NCBI GenBank assembly: GCA_003169975.1
Contig: PNAA01000016.1
Span: 1-34,319 of the forward strand
From: Spartobacteria bacterium
GTDB lineage: Bacteria > Verrucomicrobiota > Verrucomicrobiia > Chthoniobacterales > UBA10450
Length of the DNA: 34,319 nt
Direction: 5' to 3'
The position numbers and the translations under genes are program-made. A model generated the notes under the pieces. The model was not told where the DNA came from. It searched no databases and worked only from the letters and a program-made list of their open reading frames with translations. This document shows, piece by piece, positions 3,011 to 24,200 of this stretch; within the stretch, counting starts at the first letter, position 1; every line of letters starts with the position of its first letter.

Positions 3011-3069
3011 GGCATAACGGTTCTCCGGAAAGAGGAAATTGGAAAGCTGGACGCGCTGAAATTCGGAGA

Positions 3070-3171
3070 GAGGACGGAGGACGAGAAAGTAGAAAGTAAA
3101 AAGTAGAAGGTAGAAAGTGGGAGACGGAGGACGGAGGGAAATTAAGAAGGATGAAGGAAGAAGGATGAAGT
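3070..3171. repeat. Heptamer tandem repeats, three unit types
   Basis: Read in steps of 7 from 3070: GAGGACG twice; after one base, GAAAGTA, GAAAGTA, AAAAGTA, GAAGGTA, GAAAGTG (3085-3119). Then GAGGACG-like units follow, and AAGAAGG, ATGAAGG, AAGAAGG, ATGAAGT (3144-3171). More GAGGACG units occur near 3186-3200. The tract lies upstream of the small coiled-coil gene and is purine-rich on the + strand. Confidence 0.85.
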
Positions 3172-3240
3172 GGGGGAAGGCAGCCGGAGGACGGAGGACG
3201 GCCGCCTCCATTGAACTTAGGGCGTGCCAAGGAGGACGGA

Positions 3241-3501
3241 TCAGCGATAGGCCTCGCGGCGATGTCGAATGCTCTCGATGGCCACGACAAAGATGGCGTC
3301 CTCGACTGTGTAGATCACTCGATAGTTGCCGACTCGGACGCGGAACGCATTGTCGCTGCCAACGAGCTTGCGGCAGCCTTCCGGCCGCGGGTTGCGCGCC
3401 AGCCCGTTGATCGCACGCAAGACACGACGCTGCACGGTAGCATCGAGTCGGCGAAGGTCCTTGTCGGCCGAACGGCGAAAACTAACGGCGTACTGCTGCA
3501 T
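3241..3501 (-). CDS. RelE/ParE-family toxin (86 aa)
   Basis: The protein has the full length and layout of RelE/ParE toxins. An N-terminal beta strand and helix (YAVSFRRSADKDLRRL) is followed by a central GCRKLVG turn, the FRVRVGNYRVIYTVED strand pair, and the C-terminal IRHRREAYR that carries the basic and aromatic residues conserved in the family. Characterised members cleave ribosome-bound mRNA or poison gyrase; sequence alone does not say which applies here. Its ATG at 3501 lies inside the end of the upstream antitoxin gene (20-base overlap), the standard translationally coupled arrangement. It appears intact. Confidence 0.85.
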   Translation of the reverse strand: MQQYAVSFRRSADKDLRRLDATVQRRVLRAINGLARNPRPEGCRKLVGSDNAFRVRVGNYRVIYTVEDAIFVVAIESIRHRREAYR

Positions 3502-3682
3502 TCGCCTTGAGCCGGCGTTTCACTTCTGCCAGCGGGATGGTTGGCTCATCCTTGCGGCGCGCAATGACCGCCAGATCGTGCAAATCCTCCAGCAATTCCT
3601 CGTATTCTGAGATCGGCAGCACCACCGCTGTCGGCTTGCCGTTCTTCACGATGTATTCCGCCTTCGGATTCAGCGTCTTCAT
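3482..3682 (-). CDS. Antitoxin, Phd/YefM-like (66 aa)
   Basis: The N-terminus (LNPKAEYIVKNGKPTAVVLP, then ISEYEELLEDL) is the Phd/YefM DNA-binding fold. The C-terminus (IPLAEVKRRLKANA) is the short helix that wraps the toxin. The ATG at 3682 gives the usual family length. It is the first gene of a two-gene operon with the RelE-like toxin, which it should neutralise. Antitoxins of this type normally repress their own promoter, so regulation by conditional cooperativity is expected from family knowledge, not seen here. Confidence 0.85.
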   Translation of the reverse strand: MKTLNPKAEYIVKNGKPTAVVLPISEYEELLEDLHDLAVIARRKDEPTIPLAEVKRRLKANAAVRR

Positions 3683-3746
3683 ACGAGCAGACTACTTGCT
3701 TCACGGCCACATTGCCAATTCGAAGCCCGCAAAGTGCCCCTCGAGA

Positions 3747-3992
3747 TCACAGGGTCGATTGATCGAGTGGCTTGAGCGGGTCGTCGGCCAGAGATTTTTC
3801 TGCCCAACTCGCGAAGCGCGCTATGCGCTCAGGATCGCGGAAACGCTGATCCCAGCCGGCCTCATCTTCGCGGACGCGGCTCAGCTCTTTCTCCTGGCGA
3901 AGGAAAAGGGCGTAACTAAGAACCGCGCGCCGCGCTTCTGCCGGGAGAGCATGCACGGTTTCGAGAAGGGCGGCCTCTGTTTCGTCAGGCAT
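3747..3992 (-). CDS. Antitoxin-like small protein without a visible toxin (81 aa)
   Basis: The first half (LLETVHALPAEARRAVLSYALFLRQE) resembles the helical 'ELPEExRxEVLDFxxFL' motif of DUF2281-type proteins, often annotated as antitoxins. The second half is charged with a conserved-looking ERIARFASWAEKSL segment. No toxin gene follows; the next gene on the strand, 64 bases on, is the Phd-like antitoxin of the neighbouring pair. It could be an orphan antitoxin, a regulator, or the survivor of a lost pair. The assignment rests on weak similarity recalled from the family. Confidence 0.5.
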   Translation of the reverse strand: MPDETEAALLETVHALPAEARRAVLSYALFLRQEKELSRVREDEAGWDQRFRDPERIARFASWAEKSLADDPLKPLDQSTL

Positions 3993-4050
3993 GGGCGAAA
4001 GTTAATCAGAGCGGCCGGAAATGTCGAAGACGTTCTTCTGGAAAGCTGAT

Positions 4051-4099
4051 CCGCCTCGGGGACCGAGGCGGGTTCTCGGTTATTGGTTCTTCGTTATTC
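4051..4099. repeat. Perfect 9-bp hairpin followed by GTTATTG heptamers
   Basis: CCGCCTCGG (4051-4059) pairs with CCGAGGCGG (4063-4071) across a 3-base loop. At 4079-4099 three heptamers follow: GTTATTG, GTTCTTC, GTTATTC. The hairpin has no U-tract and no gene ends next to it on the + strand, so I do not call it a terminator. Confidence 0.6.
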
Positions 4100-4178
4100 G
4101 CCGCGGCGAATCCGCGCTGCTGCAGCCGGATTGGTTAAGGAGAAGGAGCGGGGAGGACGACACGGAGGACAGGGCGGG

Positions 4179-4297
4179 GAAAGTAGAAGGTAGAATGGAG
4201 CCGGTGGGGACCGTGCGACATGGACGTAGCCCGGAGGGTGAGCGAGCGGGCTGCGAGTGAATCAAAGTAGAAAGTAAAACGTCGGAGGACGGAGACA
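4179..4297. repeat. Heptamer tandem repeats in the gap before the kinase
   Basis: GAAAGTA, GAAGGTA (4179-4192); then CAAAGTA, GAAAGTA (4263-4276); then GGAGGAC, GGAGACA (4284-4297). These are the same unit families as at 3070-3119. A GC-rich hairpin-like stretch (AGCCCG...CGGGCT, about 4218-4245) lies between them. The remainder of the gap 3993-4478 shows nothing coding. Confidence 0.75.
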
Positions 4298-14689: not shown

Positions 14690-15877
14690 TTATTTCGGAC
14701 GCTTCGACGGCGTGGGGCGAGGTTTGGTGGAGGGGCCCGCGGTCGGCGCCGGCGGCGGCTCCGATTTGAGCAATGCGCTGCGCTCCTTGAGGAAATGTTC
14801 CACCGTTCCTTTGGCGACGAGGTAGGGCCGACCGGCGAGCTTTTCTTCCTTCGTCAGCTTTTCGTTCAGCTGCTTCTGTTTCTCCTGGAATTGCTGGTCG
14901 AGCCGGGCCTTGTCTGCGGGTTTCTCATCGGCCCCAGGCTTACGTTCGTTAGGCAGGCTCGCTTTCACGGAAACAAGGACGGGATAGTTTGTGCCCATCA
15001 GTTTCCCGATGCGCAATAGGTAGTCAAAACCATCGAAGGTCTCGATGGTGAGCGTGGAAGGCTTGTCCAGGCCGGTCTCGGCCGGCAGCGCGTCGGCCTT
15101 CAGGACGTCGGCGAAGCCCAGGTTGGCGAGGTAGCTGGTGACAGTGTTAAACTTCGTGCTGTCGGGTTCTTCGCCGGGTTTCGCCTCAAGCAAAGTCCAG
15201 GGGCCAGTGACGGTCTGGCGCGAGACTTTCCAATTCATGCCCGGAGCGGCGCCGGCGAGGGCGATGGATTTGGGGTTTTCCACCTTGAGAAAATCTCGAC
15301 TGATCCAGAGATCGGGTTTTGGCTGGACCTCATCGAAGGTCTCCGCAACGAGGTAGACGCGTTCGGCGTGGGCGGGCGACATGACATAGCGCCCGACAGA
15401 AATCGAGACGTCGCCGAAAGAACGGTTAGACATCTGGTTTTGCTTTTTCCCGAGCAACAACGAGCCCAACGGCTTCGCGCTGCCGTCCGTGAGTTCGATC
15501 AACGTGCCGCTATCCGAAGTGCTGCCGGGCTCAAGCAGCTCCAGACGCCCAAGCTGCGAAGGGCCGGCTTTGACATCCTGGGTGGCGCGCAATTCCCAGA
15601 GTTTCCGAAGCAAGCCCGCGACTTTCCCGAAGTCGGCCGGGTAATCAGCGCGCTCCGCCACGCGCCACGTGCCCTCTTGCTTGACCAGGTTGAGTTCGGT
15701 TCCGCTAGTCTTGATGGTGACGCGCGAAACGTCATTGAGCGGAAAGGAAAGAATCTTTTCGCTCGACCCGGCCGCGCTGCTGCTCCAGGAAGCGGAGTCG
15801 CGGCTGCGCAGCAGGAGGGCGACTCCACCGAGCGCCGCGAGCAGGACGAGAATGAGGGCGAGCTGATTCCTTTTCAT
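14690..15877 (-). CDS. DUF4340 membrane-anchored protein, last gene of ABC operon (395 aa)
   Basis: The ATG at 15877 overlaps the stop of the GldG-like gene by four bases (ATGA), which decides the start. MKRNQLALILVLLAALGGVALLL is a single N-terminal membrane anchor. The rest is periplasmic. Residues about 40-300 match the DUF4340 pattern: strands such as ILSFPLNDVSRVTIKTSG, EGTWRVAERADYPAD and VYLVAETFDEV, then repeats of the same fold. The tail has a Lys/Glu coiled-coil stretch and a Pro-rich end. DUF4340 proteins are regularly encoded with Gld-type ABC genes. The biochemical role is unknown; a periplasmic partner of the GldG-like protein is the natural guess. Confidence 0.85.
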   Translation of the reverse strand: MKRNQLALILVLLAALGGVALLLRSRDSASWSSSAAGSSEKILSFPLNDVSRVTIKTSGTELNLVKQEGTWRVAERADYPADFGKVAGLLRKLWELRATQDVKAGPSQLGRLELLEPGSTSDSGTLIELTDGSAKPLGSLLLGKKQNQMSNRSFGDVSISVGRYVMSPAHAERVYLVAETFDEVQPKPDLWISRDFLKVENPKSIALAGAAPGMNWKVSRQTVTGPWTLLEAKPGEEPDSTKFNTVTSYLANLGFADVLKADALPAETGLDKPSTLTIETFDGFDYLLRIGKLMGTNYPVLVSVKASLPNERKPGADEKPADKARLDQQFQEKQKQLNEKLTKEEKLAGRPYLVAKGTVEHFLKERSALLKSEPPPAPTAGPSTKPRPTPSKRPK

Positions 15878-17757
15878 TCTCCGGCGCGTTGCCGCTTCAT
15901 CAGGGCGAGAAGGAATCCGGCCAGGATCACGACGACCGGCATGCCCGCGATGTTGATCCACTTGATTCGATTCTCGAGCGAGTCGATCTGGGCCCTCAGT
16001 TTGCGCCGCATCTCTTTCAACTGCGTTTTTACATCCGCTTCGGTCTTGCGGAAATTCGCCAGCTCTTCCTGTTGCTCGGGGGAAAGGATGAAGCGTTGCC
16101 CGGCGTCCTTGCTCCGTTGCAGCTCGTTCATTTTGCGCTGCGTGTCGGCCAGGCTGCTTTCGAGCTCCTTGATTTTGCTGCGGTAGTTTGCTTCCGCATC
16201 CGCCTGCATTTTCTGCACGACAGTGAAGGGCCGCTCTCGCGAGGCGCGGCTGCGCACCGCGATGAGGTTGCTGTCGCCGGCCAGTTGTTCGACCGCGCCT
16301 TGCGCGAAGCCGAGGTTGCCATTGACCGGAATGATGAGCGGCTCTCCGCCGAGCGTCTGCAATTCGCGCACCGCGACCGCGTTTTGAATCATGTCGGCGT
16401 CACCCACCAGGACAACGGTGGTCGGATGAGTGGACTCCTTCAGAAAACCTGCGTCGGCGGGTTTCTCTTCCGGCTTCGGCTGAGCTGGTTTCGGCTGGGC
16501 GGGCTTCGGTTTGCCGTCCGGGAATGCGGTCTTGAAACGACCGGCCAAACGGATCGCGAGCGGATACTGCGTTCCGCTGGCTTTGAAATCGTTGGCGATC
16601 TGCGCTGCGCCGAAAGAAGCCATCATCGCGTCGACCAGTTGCGAGCGCTTCGAGGTCTTGATGAGATCCGTCTTGGTCAAGCCGGCGACCGGTGTGCCGG
16701 TGAATACGCCGGTGAAGGCCATGATCAGGTTGTCCGCGTCGGCGGTGAGCACGTCGTCCTTGTTCATCGCGGTTTCGTTCAGCGCGAGCACGGTCGGGTT
16801 GCGCTCGCCTCTCATGCTGGCGGCGTATTCCAGATCCGCGGCGACCTGCCCCGCGGGGAAATCCACGCCCCAGGCCTTGAACAATTTGTCGAGGGTCGAA
16901 CTGCTGGGCGGCGGCAATCCGCCGTTTGGAACCTGCGGCCGATCGAGCGCGCAGAGCGGATCGACAAACGCGACCAGTTGGCCGCCGCGCAGGACGAATT
17001 GGTCGAGCGCGAACTGGGTCGCGTCAGATATTTCCTTCGGGTGAATTACGACCAGGACCTTGATCTCGTCCGGGACCTTATCGGTCGTGAGCTCCACCTG
17101 CTTCACGTCGAAGTCGCGTTGTAGCTCGCTGATGAAGGCCCACGGACGCGACTCGTTTTGTTCGCGGCGCATCATCATCGGATTCATCTCACCCATGACC
17201 GGGAGCGCGCTCATCACGCCGACCACCGGCTTTTTCGAAACCATCACGCGCGCGATGGCACGGGAGACATCGTATTCCAGGAGGCGCTCGCGATCCGGAG
17301 TGAGAAGGGGGACGGCCTGTTTCTGGTCGAGCATGCTCACGCTCAGGCCGAGATAGGCTCGCTCGCCGCCGCGCAAGGGCTGCGCTTCCACGCCATCGAG
17401 CCGGGCCGAATCTTCCGCGTCGGAATCCGGCGTCGGGTCGAGCCGCTGGACTGCGATCTTTCCCTTGGAAACCTGCGTGTATTCGCCGAGCAAATCCTCC
17501 ACCCGCTGGGCGTAGTTGGCGAGCGTGACCGGCATCGTCTTCGTGTCCCGGGTGCAATATAAACGGATTTGGACCGGGCCATCGAGTTTGGCCAGGATGG
17601 CCCGGGTGCCGGGCGAAAGGGTGTAGGCTTTTTCGGCGGTGAGATCGATCCGCTGTTTCGCCTGCGCGGCGATGAGGTTGACCGCGACCAGGAGGAGGAG
17701 CATCGCGACGATACCCACGCCGGAATAAAGAATGGTTTCCAGTCCTTTCTTCTTCAT
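15874..17757 (-). CDS. GldG-like ABC-associated extracytoplasmic protein (627 aa)
   Basis: A membrane segment at about 9-30 (ILYSGVGIVAMLLLLVAVNL) is followed by the GldG N-terminal motif RIDLTAEKAYTLSPGTRAIL, then LDGPVQIRLYC and YAQRVEDLLGEY. The central domain (about 195-480) has the 'uncharacterised ABC transport' fold: KPVVGVMSALPVMG, VLVVIHPKEISDATQFALDQ and GGQLVAFVDPLCALD. A long coiled coil (about 530-590, with SLADTQRKMNELQRSKD) and a second membrane helix (about 603-620) end the protein. In Bacteroidetes GldF and GldG accompany the ABC ATPase GldA; some members support gliding or export, but the function outside that phylum is unknown. It is 12 bases downstream of the permease and overlaps DUF4340. 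Confidence 0.88.
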   Translation of the reverse strand: MKKKGLETILYSGVGIVAMLLLLVAVNLIAAQAKQRIDLTAEKAYTLSPGTRAILAKLDGPVQIRLYCTRDTKTMPVTLANYAQRVEDLLGEYTQVSKGKIAVQRLDPTPDSDAEDSARLDGVEAQPLRGGERAYLGLSVSMLDQKQAVPLLTPDRERLLEYDVSRAIARVMVSKKPVVGVMSALPVMGEMNPMMMRREQNESRPWAFISELQRDFDVKQVELTTDKVPDEIKVLVVIHPKEISDATQFALDQFVLRGGQLVAFVDPLCALDRPQVPNGGLPPPSSSTLDKLFKAWGVDFPAGQVAADLEYAASMRGERNPTVLALNETAMNKDDVLTADADNLIMAFTGVFTGTPVAGLTKTDLIKTSKRSQLVDAMMASFGAAQIANDFKASGTQYPLAIRLAGRFKTAFPDGKPKPAQPKPAQPKPEEKPADAGFLKESTHPTTVVLVGDADMIQNAVAVRELQTLGGEPLIIPVNGNLGFAQGAVEQLAGDSNLIAVRSRASRERPFTVVQKMQADAEANYRSKIKELESSLADTQRKMNELQRSKDAGQRFILSPEQQEELANFRKTEADVKTQLKEMRRKLRAQIDSLENRIKWINIAGMPVVVILAGFLLALMKRQRAGE

Positions 17758-17769
17758 GCGCTTTACTCG

Positions 17770-18585
17770 TTAGCCGGCGCGATGCGCGCGGAGAATGACG
17801 CTGGTGGTGAAAAGCGAGAAGAGAATCACCGAGAGGAAAAAAAGCACGTCGCGCGAATCGATCACGCCCACTTGCAGGCCGTCGAAGTGGGTGACCACGC
17901 TGAAGGCCGCGATCGTCTGCACGAACCAGGGGCTGGCCCATTGCGTCAGCAGATCGGTCACGGGCGGCCAGCCCGCGAGGATAAGAAAGAGACAAACCAC
18001 GAGTGAGAGAATGAAGCTTACCACTTGATTGCGCGTCATCGCCGAAGTCATGGCAGCGATGGAAAGGTAAGCGCCGGCCAGCAACAGGCTGCCGAGGTAA
18101 CCGGTGAAGATCACGCCATTATCCGGGTGCCCGAGATAGTTGACCGTGATGACGAGTGGAAAGGTGAGGGCGAGCGCCAGCGCCAGGATCAGCCAGGAAG
18201 CGAGAAACTTTCCGACAATCGCCTGCCAGGGCGTGATCGGCATGGTCAACAAAAGCTCCATCGTGCCGAGGCGGCGTTCTTCCGACCACATCCGCATCCC
18301 GACCGCGGGCACGAGGAAAAGATAAAGCCACGGATGCCAGGCGAAGAAAGAAAGGAGATTGGCCTGCCCGTGTTCGAAGAAGCCCGCGACCATGAAAGTG
18401 AGAAAACCGGAGAGCAGCAAAAAGATGACGATGAAAACGTAGGCGATCGGCGAGGCGAAATAGCCGCTCACTTCCCGCTTGGCGATGGTGAGAATGTGGC
18501 GGAGCGCATCGGTCCACGCGGGTTTTGCGCTCGCGTCCGTGACCGTCTGGGCGTTGGCCGATCGTTCGAGAATGGCTTCGCTCAT
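17770..18585 (-). CDS. ABC transporter permease, GldF-like (271 aa)
   Basis: The ATG at 18585 overlaps the stop of the ATPase gene (ATGA), fixing the start. The cytoplasmic N-terminus is about 30 residues. Then come six predicted membrane helices: SPIAYVFIVIFLLLSGFLTF, FFAWHPWLYLFLVPAVGM, WLILALALALTFPLVITV, YLGSLLLAGAYLSIAAMTSAM, VVSFILSLVVCLFLILAG and LFFLSVILFSLFTTSVI. A conserved cytoplasmic loop MWSEERRLGTMELLLTMPIT is the usual coupling region of GldF/ABC-2 permeases. It should form the membrane channel for the ATPase encoded just before it. The substrate is unknown. Confidence 0.88.
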   Translation of the reverse strand: MSEAILERSANAQTVTDASAKPAWTDALRHILTIAKREVSGYFASPIAYVFIVIFLLLSGFLTFMVAGFFEHGQANLLSFFAWHPWLYLFLVPAVGMRMWSEERRLGTMELLLTMPITPWQAIVGKFLASWLILALALALTFPLVITVNYLGHPDNGVIFTGYLGSLLLAGAYLSIAAMTSAMTRNQVVSFILSLVVCLFLILAGWPPVTDLLTQWASPWFVQTIAAFSVVTHFDGLQVGVIDSRDVLFFLSVILFSLFTTSVILRAHRAG

Positions 18586-19535
18586 GGGTTCCCCTCCCGT
18601 TTGGTTTCCGGCAACGTGATACTGCGGAAGACTTCGTCGAGGCGGCCTTCTTCGGTGTGCAGCTCCTCGATTTTCCAGCGCTCGGCCGCAGCCAGTTCGC
18701 CGATGGCTCGCGCCAGGTCTCGGCCGTTGTTCGTCGCGAAGGCGCGCAGCGCGACCGGCGTTGTGGAAAGCACCGCGCATTTTGCGACCGCCGGGATCTG
18801 CTCCAGTTTTTGCCGGACCTGCGCGACGCTGCCATCCGCGATGCGCAAGGTGACAGCGCCGGCGTAGGTCGAGCGCTGCTTCAATTCCTCCGGGGTGCCG
18901 TTGGCCACGATCTGGCCGCGATCGATGATGATCGCGCGCGAGCAGGCGGCCTCGACCTCCTCCAGGATGTGAGTCGAAAAAATGATCGCCTTCGATTCGC
19001 CCATCTTGCGAATCAACGTGCGGACCTCATGCTTTTGATTTGGATCGAGACCGTCGGTCGGCTCGTCGAGCACAAGCACTTGCGGATCGTGAATGATCGA
19101 CTGCGCGAAACAGGTGCGATGCCGATAGCCCTTCGACAACGTCTCGATGCTCTGGTGGATGACCGGTTCGAGAAAACACATCTCGACCACCCGATGGACG
19201 GCGCGCTTGTTCGCCTCGCCACGCAGCCCGCGCAGCTCCGCGGCGAAGCGGAGAAAGCCGAGCACGGTCATGTCCGTGTAGGAGGGGGCGTTCTCCGGCA
19301 GATAGCCGATCAGGCGTTTCGCCGGGATGGGGTCTTCCAGCATGCTAAAACCGCCGACCGTGATCTCGCCCTCCGACGGCGGAATGAAGCCGGTCAGCAT
19401 GCGCATGGTGGTCGATTTGCCCGCGCCATTCGGCCCGAGGAATCCGAGCACCTCGCCCACCTGCACGGTGAAGGAGACTCCGTCCACCGCCCACTTGGCC
19501 CCAAACGATTTCTTGAGATTTCGAACTGTAACCAT
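18582..19535 (-). CDS. ABC transporter ATPase, GldA-like (317 aa)
   Basis: I start at the ATG at 19535 (MVTVRNLKKSFGAKWAVDGV). Further in-frame ATG codons up to 19580 would add a short leader with no clear ribosome site. The motifs are all present: Walker A GPNGAGKST (34-42), signature LSKGYRHR (133-140), Walker B VLVLDEP (153-159), D-loop and H-loop His189 in IFSTHILEE. A C-terminal domain of about 95 residues (from about 215), ending LDEVFRSIT, is typical of ABC-2 type exporter ATPases. First gene of the four-gene leftward operon, each following gene starting within 12 bases of, or overlapping, the previous stop. It powers the GldF-like permease. Confidence 0.9.
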   Translation of the reverse strand: MVTVRNLKKSFGAKWAVDGVSFTVQVGEVLGFLGPNGAGKSTTMRMLTGFIPPSEGEITVGGFSMLEDPIPAKRLIGYLPENAPSYTDMTVLGFLRFAAELRGLRGEANKRAVHRVVEMCFLEPVIHQSIETLSKGYRHRTCFAQSIIHDPQVLVLDEPTDGLDPNQKHEVRTLIRKMGESKAIIFSTHILEEVEAACSRAIIIDRGQIVANGTPEELKQRSTYAGAVTLRIADGSVAQVRQKLEQIPAVAKCAVLSTTPVALRAFATNNGRDLARAIGELAAAERWKIEELHTEEGRLDEVFRSITLPETKREGNP

Positions 19536-19696
19536 GCTGCCGAGGTTCGTTCTTCGGATGTGCATGTGTAGGACACTCAATTTTTCAGAACGTTCAAGTG
19601 GGAAACTTTAAATTGCCTGGTTTCCTCGGAACAGGAGAGGGACGGCGCACAATTTCGATTTGGAGAAAACGAATCGGCAAAGCAGTATGCAGCGCG

Positions 19697-20686: not shown

Positions 20687-21316
20687 CTAACTCTGGCGGA
20701 AGATCCGCGGCCGCGGCGTTGTGTTGTTTCGCTGGTGACCAACGATTTCGCCTTGGACAGTCCGGCCGTCTACGCGCGTGAGATTTTTCACCTGGGCTGG
20801 ATTCAACAGTGGCATGTGCGGGATATCGCAAAGATGGTTTGGCACGACCCAAATGTTTTTCTCCGAGGTCATCCACTGGTCTTGGTCGAACCGGGTGAGG
20901 TTTACCGGGCGGGAGTAGCGACGCAGGGTGCGCTCGCCGCGCAGGTTGAAATAGATGTGAAAGTAACTCAGGGCCAACTCGCGCAACGTGCGATAGACCG
21001 GCTCGCGATATCTGCACCCGGTAAAGTTCGATTTTGCCAGCGCACCCCAATGGCCGCGGACTTTGAAGACGGCGAGCACATGATCGGTATCGTTGTCCGC
21101 TTCCAAGTCGAGGAGCAACGGCGGGAAGCCAAGCACGCGCAGAGCGGCCGCGGCGAAGATCGCGCCTTCCAGACAATGCGCGGTGCGCTCGCGCAGGACG
21201 ACGCGCGGCGACCAGGCGGTGGGCGCAAGATGATAGGGCATCGCGTCGAGGAACCGCTGGATGCCGACAGGCGTTTTGAGGGAGCGGAGCTTTCTTAATT
21301 CCGACGAATTAAGCAT
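20687..21316 (-). CDS. Transglutaminase-like cysteine-protease-fold protein (209 aa)
   Basis: Residues 43-52 (ERTAHCLEGA) contain the candidate nucleophile Cys48, and TDHVLAVF contains His79, 31 residues later. Cys-(about 30)-His is the transglutaminase-like core also seen in bacterial peptidase homologues. The stretch GFPPLLLDLEADNDTDHVLA matches the strand between them. Further on, SNFTGCRYREPVYRTLRELA and a basic tail with no similarity I can name. There is no signal peptide or membrane segment. Function is unknown; amide hydrolysis or cross-linking is possible if the third catalytic residue is present, which I cannot place. It stands alone. Confidence 0.6.
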   Translation of the reverse strand: MLNSSELRKLRSLKTPVGIQRFLDAMPYHLAPTAWSPRVVLRERTAHCLEGAIFAAAALRVLGFPPLLLDLEADNDTDHVLAVFKVRGHWGALAKSNFTGCRYREPVYRTLRELALSYFHIYFNLRGERTLRRYSRPVNLTRFDQDQWMTSEKNIWVVPNHLCDIPHMPLLNPAQVKNLTRVDGRTVQGEIVGHQRNNTTPRPRIFRQS

Positions 21317-21398: not shown

Positions 21399-22256
21399 CT
21401 AGTCGAACCGGTTGTCTTTGAAGTGGCGTTTGCCTTTTAACGCTTTGGCGTACTCGTCGCGGCTGAGGATGTTCTCGTCGAGCTGCACCTCGGTGCGACA
21501 GAAGGTCTGGAAGAAGGTCGCCACCTTGTCCGAAGCGCTCAGTACTTCTTCGGTGAGATAGTTAGCATCGACATTGATGCACACGGCCCCGACCACCCCA
21601 TACTCCGGCCGGGTGATGGGGATGGTGGTGCATTTGAAGCGCCGCGCGCCGATGTTCAGCTCATAGTTCAACTTCTCTTCATGGGTCAGCAGCCGCTTCT
21701 TCAGGTCGATGACCAGGTTGGTGGTCCCATCGTGCAGGTTACGGCCGGTAACGTTGTTCTCCAGCGCGACGAGCGAGCGCGACGGATTCGAGAGATCGTG
21801 TAGCAGGATCTCAATCCCGAGGTTGGGGAATGATTTACCGAGCAGGCGGACGATCCGGGCGTAGTTCTCCAGATATTCCTGGGTGTCGTCGGCGATTCTC
21901 TTCCCGTCGTAGCGCGTGAGTAAGCGGGCGTAAACCTTCTGCTCGGCTGGTTCAAGCTGAGCCCGCACGTTGTTTTGTTCGCCGATGAAAATGAGCTGCC
22001 GCGCCGCCATCGGATCGAAATTCCGCAGGAAGTAATGCATCCCAAGCCGGAAGTCCTTGAGACTAAATTCCGGGAAGTTGTCGCGGTCGATGATGTAGGG
22101 ATAGAAGTCGTATTCCTCGAGCTTGCGCCCGTAGCGCTGCCGCTCCTTGTATTTTCCCCAAAGAAAGCCAGCCCCGAGAAGAATGGCGGAGGCGATGACG
22201 GAAGCGATCACATTGACTGTGATGTCGCTCCCAAAACCGGCGGATAAGATTGGCAT
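21399..22256 (-). CDS. Membrane-anchored YheO-PAS-like sensor (285 aa)
   Basis: One membrane helix (about 13-34, VNVIASVIASAILLGAGFLWG) is followed by a basic stop-transfer (KYKERQRYGRK). Residues about 45-130 form a helical region of unknown type. Residues about 133-232 resemble the YheO-like PAS domain: LGKSFPNLGIEILLHDLSNP, then SLVALENNVTGRNLHDGTT, then RRFKCTTIPI and VVGAVCINVD. In YheO this domain precedes a helix-turn-helix; here no DNA-binding domain is visible and the domain is tethered to the membrane instead. It may sense a cytoplasmic ligand and signal through a partner. The C-terminal 50 residues are charged. It lies 12 bases after the small membrane protein and may share its transcript. 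Confidence 0.7.
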   Translation of the reverse strand: MPILSAGFGSDITVNVIASVIASAILLGAGFLWGKYKERQRYGRKLEEYDFYPYIIDRDNFPEFSLKDFRLGMHYFLRNFDPMAARQLIFIGEQNNVRAQLEPAEQKVYARLLTRYDGKRIADDTQEYLENYARIVRLLGKSFPNLGIEILLHDLSNPSRSLVALENNVTGRNLHDGTTNLVIDLKKRLLTHEEKLNYELNIGARRFKCTTIPITRPEYGVVGAVCINVDANYLTEEVLSASDKVATFFQTFCRTEVQLDENILSRDEYAKALKGKRHFKDNRFD

Positions 22257-22268
22257 GGTGTTTCCGGA

Positions 22269-22445
22269 CTACTTGATCTCGGGCTTGCCTTTGATGTGAA
22301 GCTGGGCCCTGCCCGTGCCTTGGTTTATGCTTAACATTTCATCCGCTTTGCCGTCAGCTCCGATCGGGAGAAGGCCGGTCAGTGCTCCGCAAAGGCAGCC
22401 CAGCGCCATGCCAATGAAAAATCCGATTAGGGCCGTTCTGCGCAC
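22269..22445 (-). CDS. Short membrane protein, start uncertain (about 58 aa)
   Basis: The frame ends with a hydrophobic helix rich in Gly and Cys (LIGFFIGMALGCLCGALTGLL) and a polar tail (QGTGRAQLHIKGKPEIK). A GTG at 22445 (VRRTALIGFF) gives the most sensible protein. The open frame upstream reads purine-rich spacer. It precedes the YheO-PAS-like gene by 12 bases, so the two may be co-transcribed. No family is recognised. Confidence 0.45.
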   Translation of the reverse strand: MRRTALIGFFIGMALGCLCGALTGLLPIGADGKADEMLSINQGTGRAQLHIKGKPEIK

Positions 22446-22598
22446 CTGGCAATCTGCGACCTTCAAGATCGAGATCAAGCAGTAAGGGGACGGATGGAGG
22501 ACGGCGACCGGAGGTCCCGCGGGTTGGAGAGCGGAAGGAAAGGCGGGGCTTTTTGCTTGCCCGGGGAAGCAAAAGCTTGCTAGTCTCGCCTCACGGCC

Positions 22599-24200
22599 AT
22601 GCCCAGAAAAGGTCACCCTCCGTTGACCCGCAACTTGCGGGAGGCATTCGCGGTTGCGCGGGAGGCGTGGGAACGCAATATGCCACCGCAAGACGTGGCA
22701 GAGCAGCGCCGCGAGCGCCGAGCGGTTGCAATCACTCGCCGCCGATTTCTCGGTACCGCCGTCGCTGCCACGGCGGGTCTGGCGTTGGCGCGGCCCCTTC
22801 GCGCCTCAGGCAACTCTCCTAGAATCGTAGTCATCGGCGCCGGTCTCGCGGGATTGCGCTTCGCCCACGCGCTTTGGACTCGTAAGGGGATCGCATCGAC
22901 GATCTACGAAGCGAACACACGACTGGGTGGACGATGCTGGACCAATCGTGACTTCTTTGCCAGCGGTCAGGTGGCCGAGCAGGGGGGAGAATTCATCTCG
23001 AGCGAGCACACTTCGATGCGGCAACTGGCGGCGGAGTTTGGTTTCCAGTTGGCCAACGTCTACGGAGGCTCCGAACCCGCTTACAACGACGTCTGCTGGC
23101 TGGACGGCGATTACTATACGGTCCCGGAGTTGAATGCCGACCTGCACCCGCTCCTGCCCGTGCTGGCTGCGGCGCGCAGGGCTGCTCCTTATCCGACACT
23201 CTATAACCGTTACATGCAGGCGGGTTATGAGCTGGATCATATGTCATGCACGGACTGGATCAGCCGGAATGTGGCGGGCGGGACAACGAGCAAGCTCGGG
23301 CGGATTTTGCTCTCCAATCAGATAGGAGAATACGGCTGCGAACCTGATGTCCAGCCCGCGCTGAATTTGATCTACCTGATCAGCGGCCTCGGGACGGGCG
23401 GTTTGGCCGGAACCGATGAACAGTATCATGTCATCGGCGGAAATGATCAGATTCCGACAATGATGGCCGACCAGTTACCCCAAGGCTCAATCCAGACCGG
23501 GATGGCGCTGGTGGCGCTCAAACGGCGCAGTGACGCCAGTTACACCTGCACCTTCGAGGCCGGCTCCGGGCAGGTGGAAGTGTCGGCGGACCATGTCGTC
23601 CTCGCGCTGCCCTTCAATCAATTGAAGAAGGTCGATCTGAGCAAGGCGGGATTATCTCCGGTGAAGATGGCGGCGATCAATGGTTACGCGCTGGGCACGA
23701 ACGCGAAGCTGGCGTTGCAGTGCAAGACGCGTCCGTGGGCTCGGCCGGATCATTGGAGCGGCGTTTGCTATACCGAGCCGCAAGGCTTTCAACTATCCTG
23801 GGATGCGACGGTCTCGCAAAATGGGCCGGCGGGAATCCTATTACGGTTCCCGGGTGGTAACGCAGGAGGTGCGAATGCTTTTCCGGGAGCGGCCGCTCAT
23901 GGCCCGGCTCCGGCGCAATACGCGCAGGATTTCCTGGCCGGTGTCGAGGCTCCGTTCCCCGGATGCCAGGCGAGTTATAATGGGCTGGCTTGGCTCGATT
24001 GGTGGGAGCAAGACCCATTCATCGGCGGCGCCTACGGTTGCTATCAATTGGGTAACTACACCGCATTCGCCGGCATCGAGAAGGTGTCGGAGGGTAACGT
24101 CCATTTCTGCGGCGCGCAGACGGACTTGGATTTCCAAGGGTTTATGGAAGGGGCCGTCCGCTCTGCCGAAACATTGGCCCTGAGAAGCGGACTCTTTTGA
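22599..24200 (+). CDS. Tat-exported flavin amine oxidase (533 aa)
   Basis: A long N-terminus carries a twin-arginine motif TRRRFLG (46-52) followed by a hydrophobic stretch (TAVAATAGLALA), so the folded flavoprotein should be exported by Tat. The FAD-binding Rossmann motif is VVIGAGLAGLRFA (Gly80, Gly82, Gly85). The flavin region LGGRCWTN, the late EQGGEFIS and the C-terminal VHFCGAQTDLDFQGFMEGAV are typical of monoamine oxidase / L-amino-acid oxidase relatives. It would oxidise an amine in the periplasm, giving aldehyde or imine, ammonia and hydrogen peroxide. The ATG at 22599 is the only one before the Tat motif with a plausible leader. The substrate is unknown; no partner gene is adjacent. 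Confidence 0.88.
   Translation: MPRKGHPPLTRNLREAFAVAREAWERNMPPQDVAEQRRERRAVAITRRRFLGTAVAATAGLALARPLRASGNSPRIVVIGAGLAGLRFAHALWTRKGIASTIYEANTRLGGRCWTNRDFFASGQVAEQGGEFISSEHTSMRQLAAEFGFQLANVYGGSEPAYNDVCWLDGDYYTVPELNADLHPLLPVLAAARRAAPYPTLYNRYMQAGYELDHMSCTDWISRNVAGGTTSKLGRILLSNQIGEYGCEPDVQPALNLIYLISGLGTGGLAGTDEQYHVIGGNDQIPTMMADQLPQGSIQTGMALVALKRRSDASYTCTFEAGSGQVEVSADHVVLALPFNQLKKVDLSKAGLSPVKMAAINGYALGTNAKLALQCKTRPWARPDHWSGVCYTEPQGFQLSWDATVSQNGPAGILLRFPGGNAGGANAFPGAAAHGPAPAQYAQDFLAGVEAPFPGCQASYNGLAWLDWWEQDPFIGGAYGCYQLGNYTAFAGIEKVSEGNVHFCGAQTDLDFQGFMEGAVRSAETLALRSGLF

Follow-up and report, generated by a model that had tools for sequence, protein, structure and literature searches.

The window, i.e., the whole 34,319-nucleotide stretch of DNA analysed, carries at positions 21399..22256 (minus strand) a gene for a 285-residue membrane-anchored PAS_6 protein in which an N-terminal membrane helix is followed by a helical domain and then by a PAS domain of the YheO-like type, with no recognisable DNA-binding domain. 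This membrane form is a conserved family rather than a one-off. The protein is proposed to serve as a membrane-tethered ligand-sensing adaptor that acts via a partner protein, with the Verrucomicrobia form probably being tuned to pterin/aromatic metabolism, a reading to which a probability of about 45% is assigned.

Domain composition of the window protein

An earlier, sequence-only reading of this DNA had proposed the presence of a YheO-type PAS domain. Such a domain was indeed detected by profile search at residues 129-235 (21552..21872, minus strand), where PF08348 (PAS_6, YheO-like) scored 63 bits, as compared to a cut-off of 27, with an E-value of 3e-17. This was the sole Pfam family above cut-off in the protein, while no NCBIfam family exceeded its cut-off. 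A genome scan revealed the protein to be the sole PAS_6 protein of its whole genome. An AlphaFold2 model built with 40 alignment rows, of moderate confidence (pLDDT 72.7, pTM 0.62), contains a helix at residues 10-41 that includes the membrane segment, helices within residues 66-141, a PAS fold at residues 148-230 and short C-terminal helices. When residues 124-234 were used in a fold search, PAS and related sensor domains appeared on top with Z-scores of up to 10.8, the leading PAS entries having Z-scores of about 8-11 and no entry having an E-value under 0.001. A single-sequence search found no solved homologue and a profile search returned two insignificant matches; neither search found a ligand-bound homologue.

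The predicted N-terminal membrane helix likewise found support, in that the Kyte-Doolittle maximum of the protein (2.19) falls at residues 14-32 (22161..22217, minus strand), within helix 10-41 of the model, with all later segments reaching values of at most 1.02. A hydrophobic segment with a maximum of at least 1.6 was seen in 39 of the 40 aligned members, the exception being a copy cut by a contig end (L068). The net charge is -1 before the segment and +4 in the next 15 residues. Based on these flank charges and the positive-inside rule, the PAS and helical domains, and hence the main part of the protein, are predicted to be cytoplasmic.

The helical domain and the helix linking it to the PAS domain together span residues 42-141 (21834..22133, minus strand), as delineated by the model and by homology to the corresponding region of plasmid-encoded proteins. 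The helical domain of 85 residues described earlier corresponds to about residues 42-122, to which is added a long helix that continues into the PAS domain. When modelled alone (pLDDT 71.3), the helical domain gave no significant match in a fold search (best Foldseek E-value 0.69, best Z-score 5.8). TPR proteins such as Fis1 were among the top Foldseek rows, weakly suggesting that the modelled domain may contain TPR-like hairpins.

The remainder of the protein, namely, the C-terminal tail at residues 236-285 (21402..21551, minus strand), is conserved in the Verrucomicrobia form and contained no HTH in the scans performed. The assertion that no DNA-binding domain is present held when a C-terminal HTH was sought by Pfam (at E-values of up to 1), in the model and in a scan of 31 PAS_6 proteins (set A4, from which L158, containing an in-frame stop, was left out). 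In this last scan, HTH_22 was found in 28 of the 31 members, i.e., in all 27 other scanned loci and in a Citrobacter plasmid copy, and was not found in the window protein, L144 or L145; two further PAS_6 matches with long reading frames also contain HTH_22. A hidden HTH or other extra domain was ruled out by Pfam, NCBIfam and the 31-member scan. Across all 31 aligned proteins, with or without an HTH, residues E149, H153, R172, Y198, C226 and N228 (window protein numbering) are invariant, arguing that the sensing core was retained and the output altered.

Distribution and conservation

The search for relatives took in samples of Verrucomicrobiota genomes and one of Pseudomonadota, records of plasmids, phages and viruses, and one pattern scan of genome contigs. 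Of 83 genomes from the window's own Verrucomicrobiota family (Chthoniobacterales), 49 contain a close relative; among the 30 with completeness of 90% or more and contamination of 5% or less, the number is 18. The hosts of these close relatives are soil bacteria, with the named ones being assigned to Chthoniobacterales, Spartobacteria and Candidatus Udaeobacter, together with unplaced Verrucomicrobia MAGs. In the class as a whole, PF08348 was over cut-off in three of 236 genomes, all three from the window's family, while the family profile found matches in three of the 387 genomes of the phylum sample.

A copy 61% identical to the window protein was found in a MAG labelled Alphaproteobacteria (L068), the genome of which yielded no aromatic amino acid hydroxylase. 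At this locus (positions 1-1724), the PAS gene faces a YkuD-type gene, the product of which is 29% identical to the Verrucomicrobia one; genes of this type are found close to the PAS gene at many Chthoniobacterales loci as well. In a sample of 398 genomes from the phylum of this MAG (Pseudomonadota, according to the label of the MAG), 44 genomes gave a match, which was full length in two, namely, the MAG itself and G875. The claim that the architecture is unusual for a PAS protein, as such, stands in comparison with the HTH form, given these two genomes in 398, but does not extend to uniqueness, since the same architecture is conserved in the Verrucomicrobiota family and also occurs on plasmids. 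Carriage by phages or viruses was considered and ruled out: viral contigs contained no relative of the protein and phage records offered just two partial matches, annotated as yheO.

The ORF begins with an ATG codon and has full-length homologues. The window protein aligns with 39 homologues at 61-84% identity, and the mean column identity over the 40 aligned sequences is 84%. In comparison with the copy at locus L025, differences at codon positions 1, 2 and 3 number 26, 23 and 115, respectively, and third-position differences dominate in comparisons with five relatives. This clustering of differences at third codon positions, together with the alignment of 39 homologues, marks the ORF as a real gene. 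For these analyses, truncated copies were excluded from sets A1 and A2, with L068 being kept, and L035 was excluded from A2 and from the tree. That tree, a rapid reconstruction in which many forks are weak, places the window copy beside another solitary copy, L025 (SH-aLRT 99), and beyond this shows only that the label of operon-linked or solitary switches few times.

Two loci contain additional PAS copies. Genome G570, which has an operon copy, contains a second, solitary one on contig C1 (L035 4992-5828; also L131), interrupted by an in-frame TAG. At L060 1912-3581, two PAS genes are found in tandem, the second being cut off at the contig end.

Gene neighborhood in Verrucomicrobia

Neighboring genes were clustered over 48 related loci and the window. 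This revealed a recurrent operon in which genes encoding 4-hydroxyphenylpyruvate dioxygenase (HPPD; TIGR01263, over cut-off), a homogentisate-dioxygenase-like protein, GTP cyclohydrolase I (FolE; Pfam/NCBIfam), a triple PTPS, an SDR and the PAS protein follow one another, with a gene facing the HPPD-FolE-PTPS-SDR operon that encodes a hydroxylase of aromatic amino acids (over cut-off for NF010657). The neighborhood is thus one of tetrahydrobiopterin synthesis plus phenylalanine/tyrosine breakdown; judging from its position, the operon SDR would act as sepiapterin reductase. The homogentisate-dioxygenase-like protein contains Pfam HgmA domains but attains only 64.6 bits, as compared to 510.75 for TIGR01015. 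The copy at L062 1190-2371 lies far below the NCBIfam HmgA cut-off, such that its substrate may differ. At the same locus (3035-4219), and in homologues of the protein encoded there, the usual PTPS of the operon is a fused triple-PTPS protein.

The sequence-only reading had called for a search for conserved neighbors, and at least one biopterin or phenylalanine/tyrosine gene was present on the locus of the PAS gene in 41 of the 48 related loci, those without such genes being L025, L026, L028, L029, L033, L035 and L068. In 28 loci, the SDR gene is found immediately upstream of the PAS gene and in the same orientation, at gaps of -4 to 177 bp, while in L030, L031, L032 and L037 the order is PTPS-PAS-SDR. 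The finding of the PAS gene either before or after the SDR gene indicates that the operon association withstands rearrangement. At the same time, the operon was kept in genomes where no PAS gene was found (L124, L125, L133 and L134), which argues that the PAS protein is accessory, as a regulator would be, rather than a required enzyme. Co-occurrence across the 83 genomes (hydroxylase, 62; PTPS, 72; PAS gene, 49) was uninformative because the hydroxylase and PTPS are more widespread than is the PAS gene, and adjacency was used instead.

Several other kinds of neighbor were also sought. The conserved neighbors of the Verrucomicrobia copies included neither a kinase gene nor a DUF1805 gene that could be recognised. 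DUF1805 was rejected as a partner in Verrucomicrobia, being over cut-off in one of the 83 genomes (G028, in which there is no PAS gene) and absent from the window's own genome. No RidA/L-PSP gene was recognised among the ten window genes scanned or in the conserved Verrucomicrobia neighbor clusters.

The window copy is itself solitary, and is not found at the operon location seen in 41 of the 48 related loci. In its genome, contig C9 carries the HPPD, HgmA, FolE and PTPS genes and contig C1 the hydroxylase gene. The window genes scanned included no recognisable kinase gene. A transglutaminase-like ORF (20687..21316, minus strand), with weak Pfam matches under cut-off, is a co-directional neighbor that only the locus of the nearest relative (L025) has in common with the window, and no functional partnership is proposed for it. 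The neighbors of the window copy in general were rejected as partners, L025 being the only locus to share several of them. A possible small membrane ORF (22269-22691, minus strand), which ends 12 bases before the PAS gene begins, had no homologue in the related loci at an E-value of 1e-6. Further away, positions 15874-19580 (minus strand) contain an ordinary-looking ABC transporter set that includes an ABC_transp_aux (PF09822) protein.

Relatives on plasmids

Matches to the window protein were detected in 21 plasmid records by tblastn, while 16 records, mostly from Proteobacteria, were matched at 80% coverage or more when a plasmid relative served as query. The full-length plasmid homologues share 24-30% identity with the window protein. 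The helical domains of the Verrucomicrobia and plasmid groups are homologous, as reflected in an hhalign probability of 97.8 (E-value 8.8e-13; score 65.8), with the best of 20 column-shuffled controls scoring 14.0 and reaching a probability of at most 0.96. Flank charges in the plasmid forms gave no clear match to the orientation of the Verrucomicrobia form.

The neighborhoods of 12 of the 16 full-length records were inspected. A histidine kinase gene follows the PAS gene in ten of the 12, and in eight (L080, L084, L085, L177, L178, L179, L180 and L182) the order is PAS protein, DUF1805 protein, kinase and a convergent response regulator, in or near transfer genes. On two Marinobacter plasmids (L082 and L181), a hybrid kinase gene lies next to the PAS gene, while the Azospira (L081) and Streptomyces (L083) plasmids contain neither the DUF1805-kinase set nor the hybrid kinase. 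Pfam confirmed the domains of the B. savannae set (L084) and of the Marinobacter hybrid kinase (L082); the kinase and DUF1805 protein of L085 (both 'hypothetical') and the DUF1805 protein of L080 ('conserved hypothetical') were recognised by size and position.

Other features were noted on two plasmids. On the Streptomyces plasmid (L083 7087-8792), the PAS copy and a TauD/TfdA dioxygenase gene overlap, and a gene for a Rid-family hydrolase lies about 1.1 kb away. On a Citrobacter plasmid (L183 151-1217), a RidA gene directly precedes a PAS_6-HTH_22 gene, the same arrangement as has been described for HTH-type proteins.

Discussion

Because the window protein contains no recognised output domain and combines a helical domain with a membrane anchor, a ligand-responsive adaptor acting on another protein is the simplest reading. 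According to this proposal, the single N-terminal helix would anchor the protein in the inner membrane, leaving both the YheO-type PAS domain and the helical domain on the cytoplasmic side. The PAS pocket, containing residues invariant in the sampled DNA-binding YheO-type regulators, would bind a small metabolite, and the signal would be relayed not to DNA but to a separate partner protein, by contacts made via the helical domain and the helix entering the PAS domain. For the Verrucomicrobia form, the most likely ligand would be a metabolite of the operon pathway, be it an aromatic amino acid, the corresponding 2-oxo acid or a pterin from tetrahydrobiopterin synthesis. On proteobacterial plasmids, the neighborhood points to the adjacent histidine kinase as the most likely partner. 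The Verrucomicrobia operon hints at what is sensed and names no partner. Speaking against the proposal are the solitary position of the window copy and of the copies at seven of the 48 related loci, the failure to recognise a kinase or DUF1805 gene near Verrucomicrobia copies, the lack of a hydroxylase match in the genome of the MAG labelled Alphaproteobacteria and the ambiguous flank charges of the plasmid forms. In terms of ligand, partner, orientation and direction of control, the assignments made here are putative. An extended version of the proposal, in which a class of membrane-tethered, output-less PAS proteins has a Verrucomicrobia branch that reads, at the membrane, a pterin of the tetrahydrobiopterin pathway or an aromatic 2-oxo acid and adjusts phenylalanine/tyrosine breakdown, and a plasmid branch that feeds a conjugation-controlling two-component system, is considered unlikely.

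Operon membership by itself cannot tell sensing from scaffolding. The protein could instead hold the SDR, PTPS and hydroxylase at the membrane or carry a pterin, with the PAS domain acting as a docking module. The tight operon association in the absence of an output domain or a nearby kinase would fit such a role, as, weakly, would TPR-like hairpins suited to docking. However, plasmid relatives of the same architecture mostly adjoin kinases rather than pterin genes, several operon-bearing genomes contain no PAS gene and the conserved PAS_6 signature is common to DNA-binding regulators, making scaffolding or cofactor handling improbable. Another alternative is a sensor of a more general signal, be it redox or amino acid breakdown products such as an enamine or imine, that was recruited into the operon, with the pathway link being incidental or lineage-specific. 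The linkage to an L-PSP/RidA-type gene described as common for HTH-type relatives (PMC4519771), and which is seen on the Citrobacter plasmid, is consistent with this idea, as are the invariance of cysteine C226 over 31 proteins and the existence of solitary copies, that of the window included. Still, no RidA gene was recognised in the conserved Verrucomicrobia neighbor clusters and the operon association persists despite reshuffling of gene order, such that a general-signal sensor is deemed doubtful, if the most credible of the alternatives.

The patchy distribution of the gene (49 of 83 genomes) and the in-frame stop in one second copy (L035/G570) could also be taken as signs of a decaying, functionless relic of a regulator. 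This is scarcely credible in the face of third-position-dominated differences, 84% mean column identity over 40 sequences and invariant signature residues. The ligand-sensing adaptor remains the preferred reading.

Known YheO-type PAS proteins offer context for this proposal. In PMC4519771, five PAS_6 architectures are reported, with PAS_6-HTH being the commonest (1816 sequences), and what the YheO-type PAS domain senses or binds is given as unknown; one of the five architectures could be a form like that of the window protein. In titles and the starts of abstracts of the open-licence literature, to which the search was confined, no membrane PAS_6 protein or biopterin link was described. A PAS_6 form found in a defined metabolic operon provides a short list of candidate ligands, rendering the question of what YheO-type domains bind testable. 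Should a pterin prove to be the ligand, the PAS domain would be sensing a cofactor that is more familiar from the metabolism of animals. The plasmid branch points to a way in which host metabolism may be sensed by some conjugative plasmids.

The window protein can be compared with several known systems. YheO-type regulators (PF08348 plus HTH_22, PF13309), such as Cj1387c/CfiR of Campylobacter jejuni (PMC4519771), belong to the same PAS family, and the HTH-type PAS_6 proteins sampled share the signature residues with the window protein, which, by contrast, presents a membrane helix and a helical domain in place of HTH_22. The 'PAS domain-containing protein' encoded ahead of DUF1805, kinase and response regulator genes on plasmids such as pAOVO01, pALIDE201 and, in Sulfuricystis, pSTJ1 shows the full-length architecture, including the homologous helical domain, but is neighbored by kinase rather than pterin genes and differs in the charges flanking the membrane segment. 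Finally, Aer2, BvgS and other PAS sensors contain a PAS fold like that of residues 124-234. Those sensors possess output domains of their own, unlike the window protein, in which no such domain was recognised.
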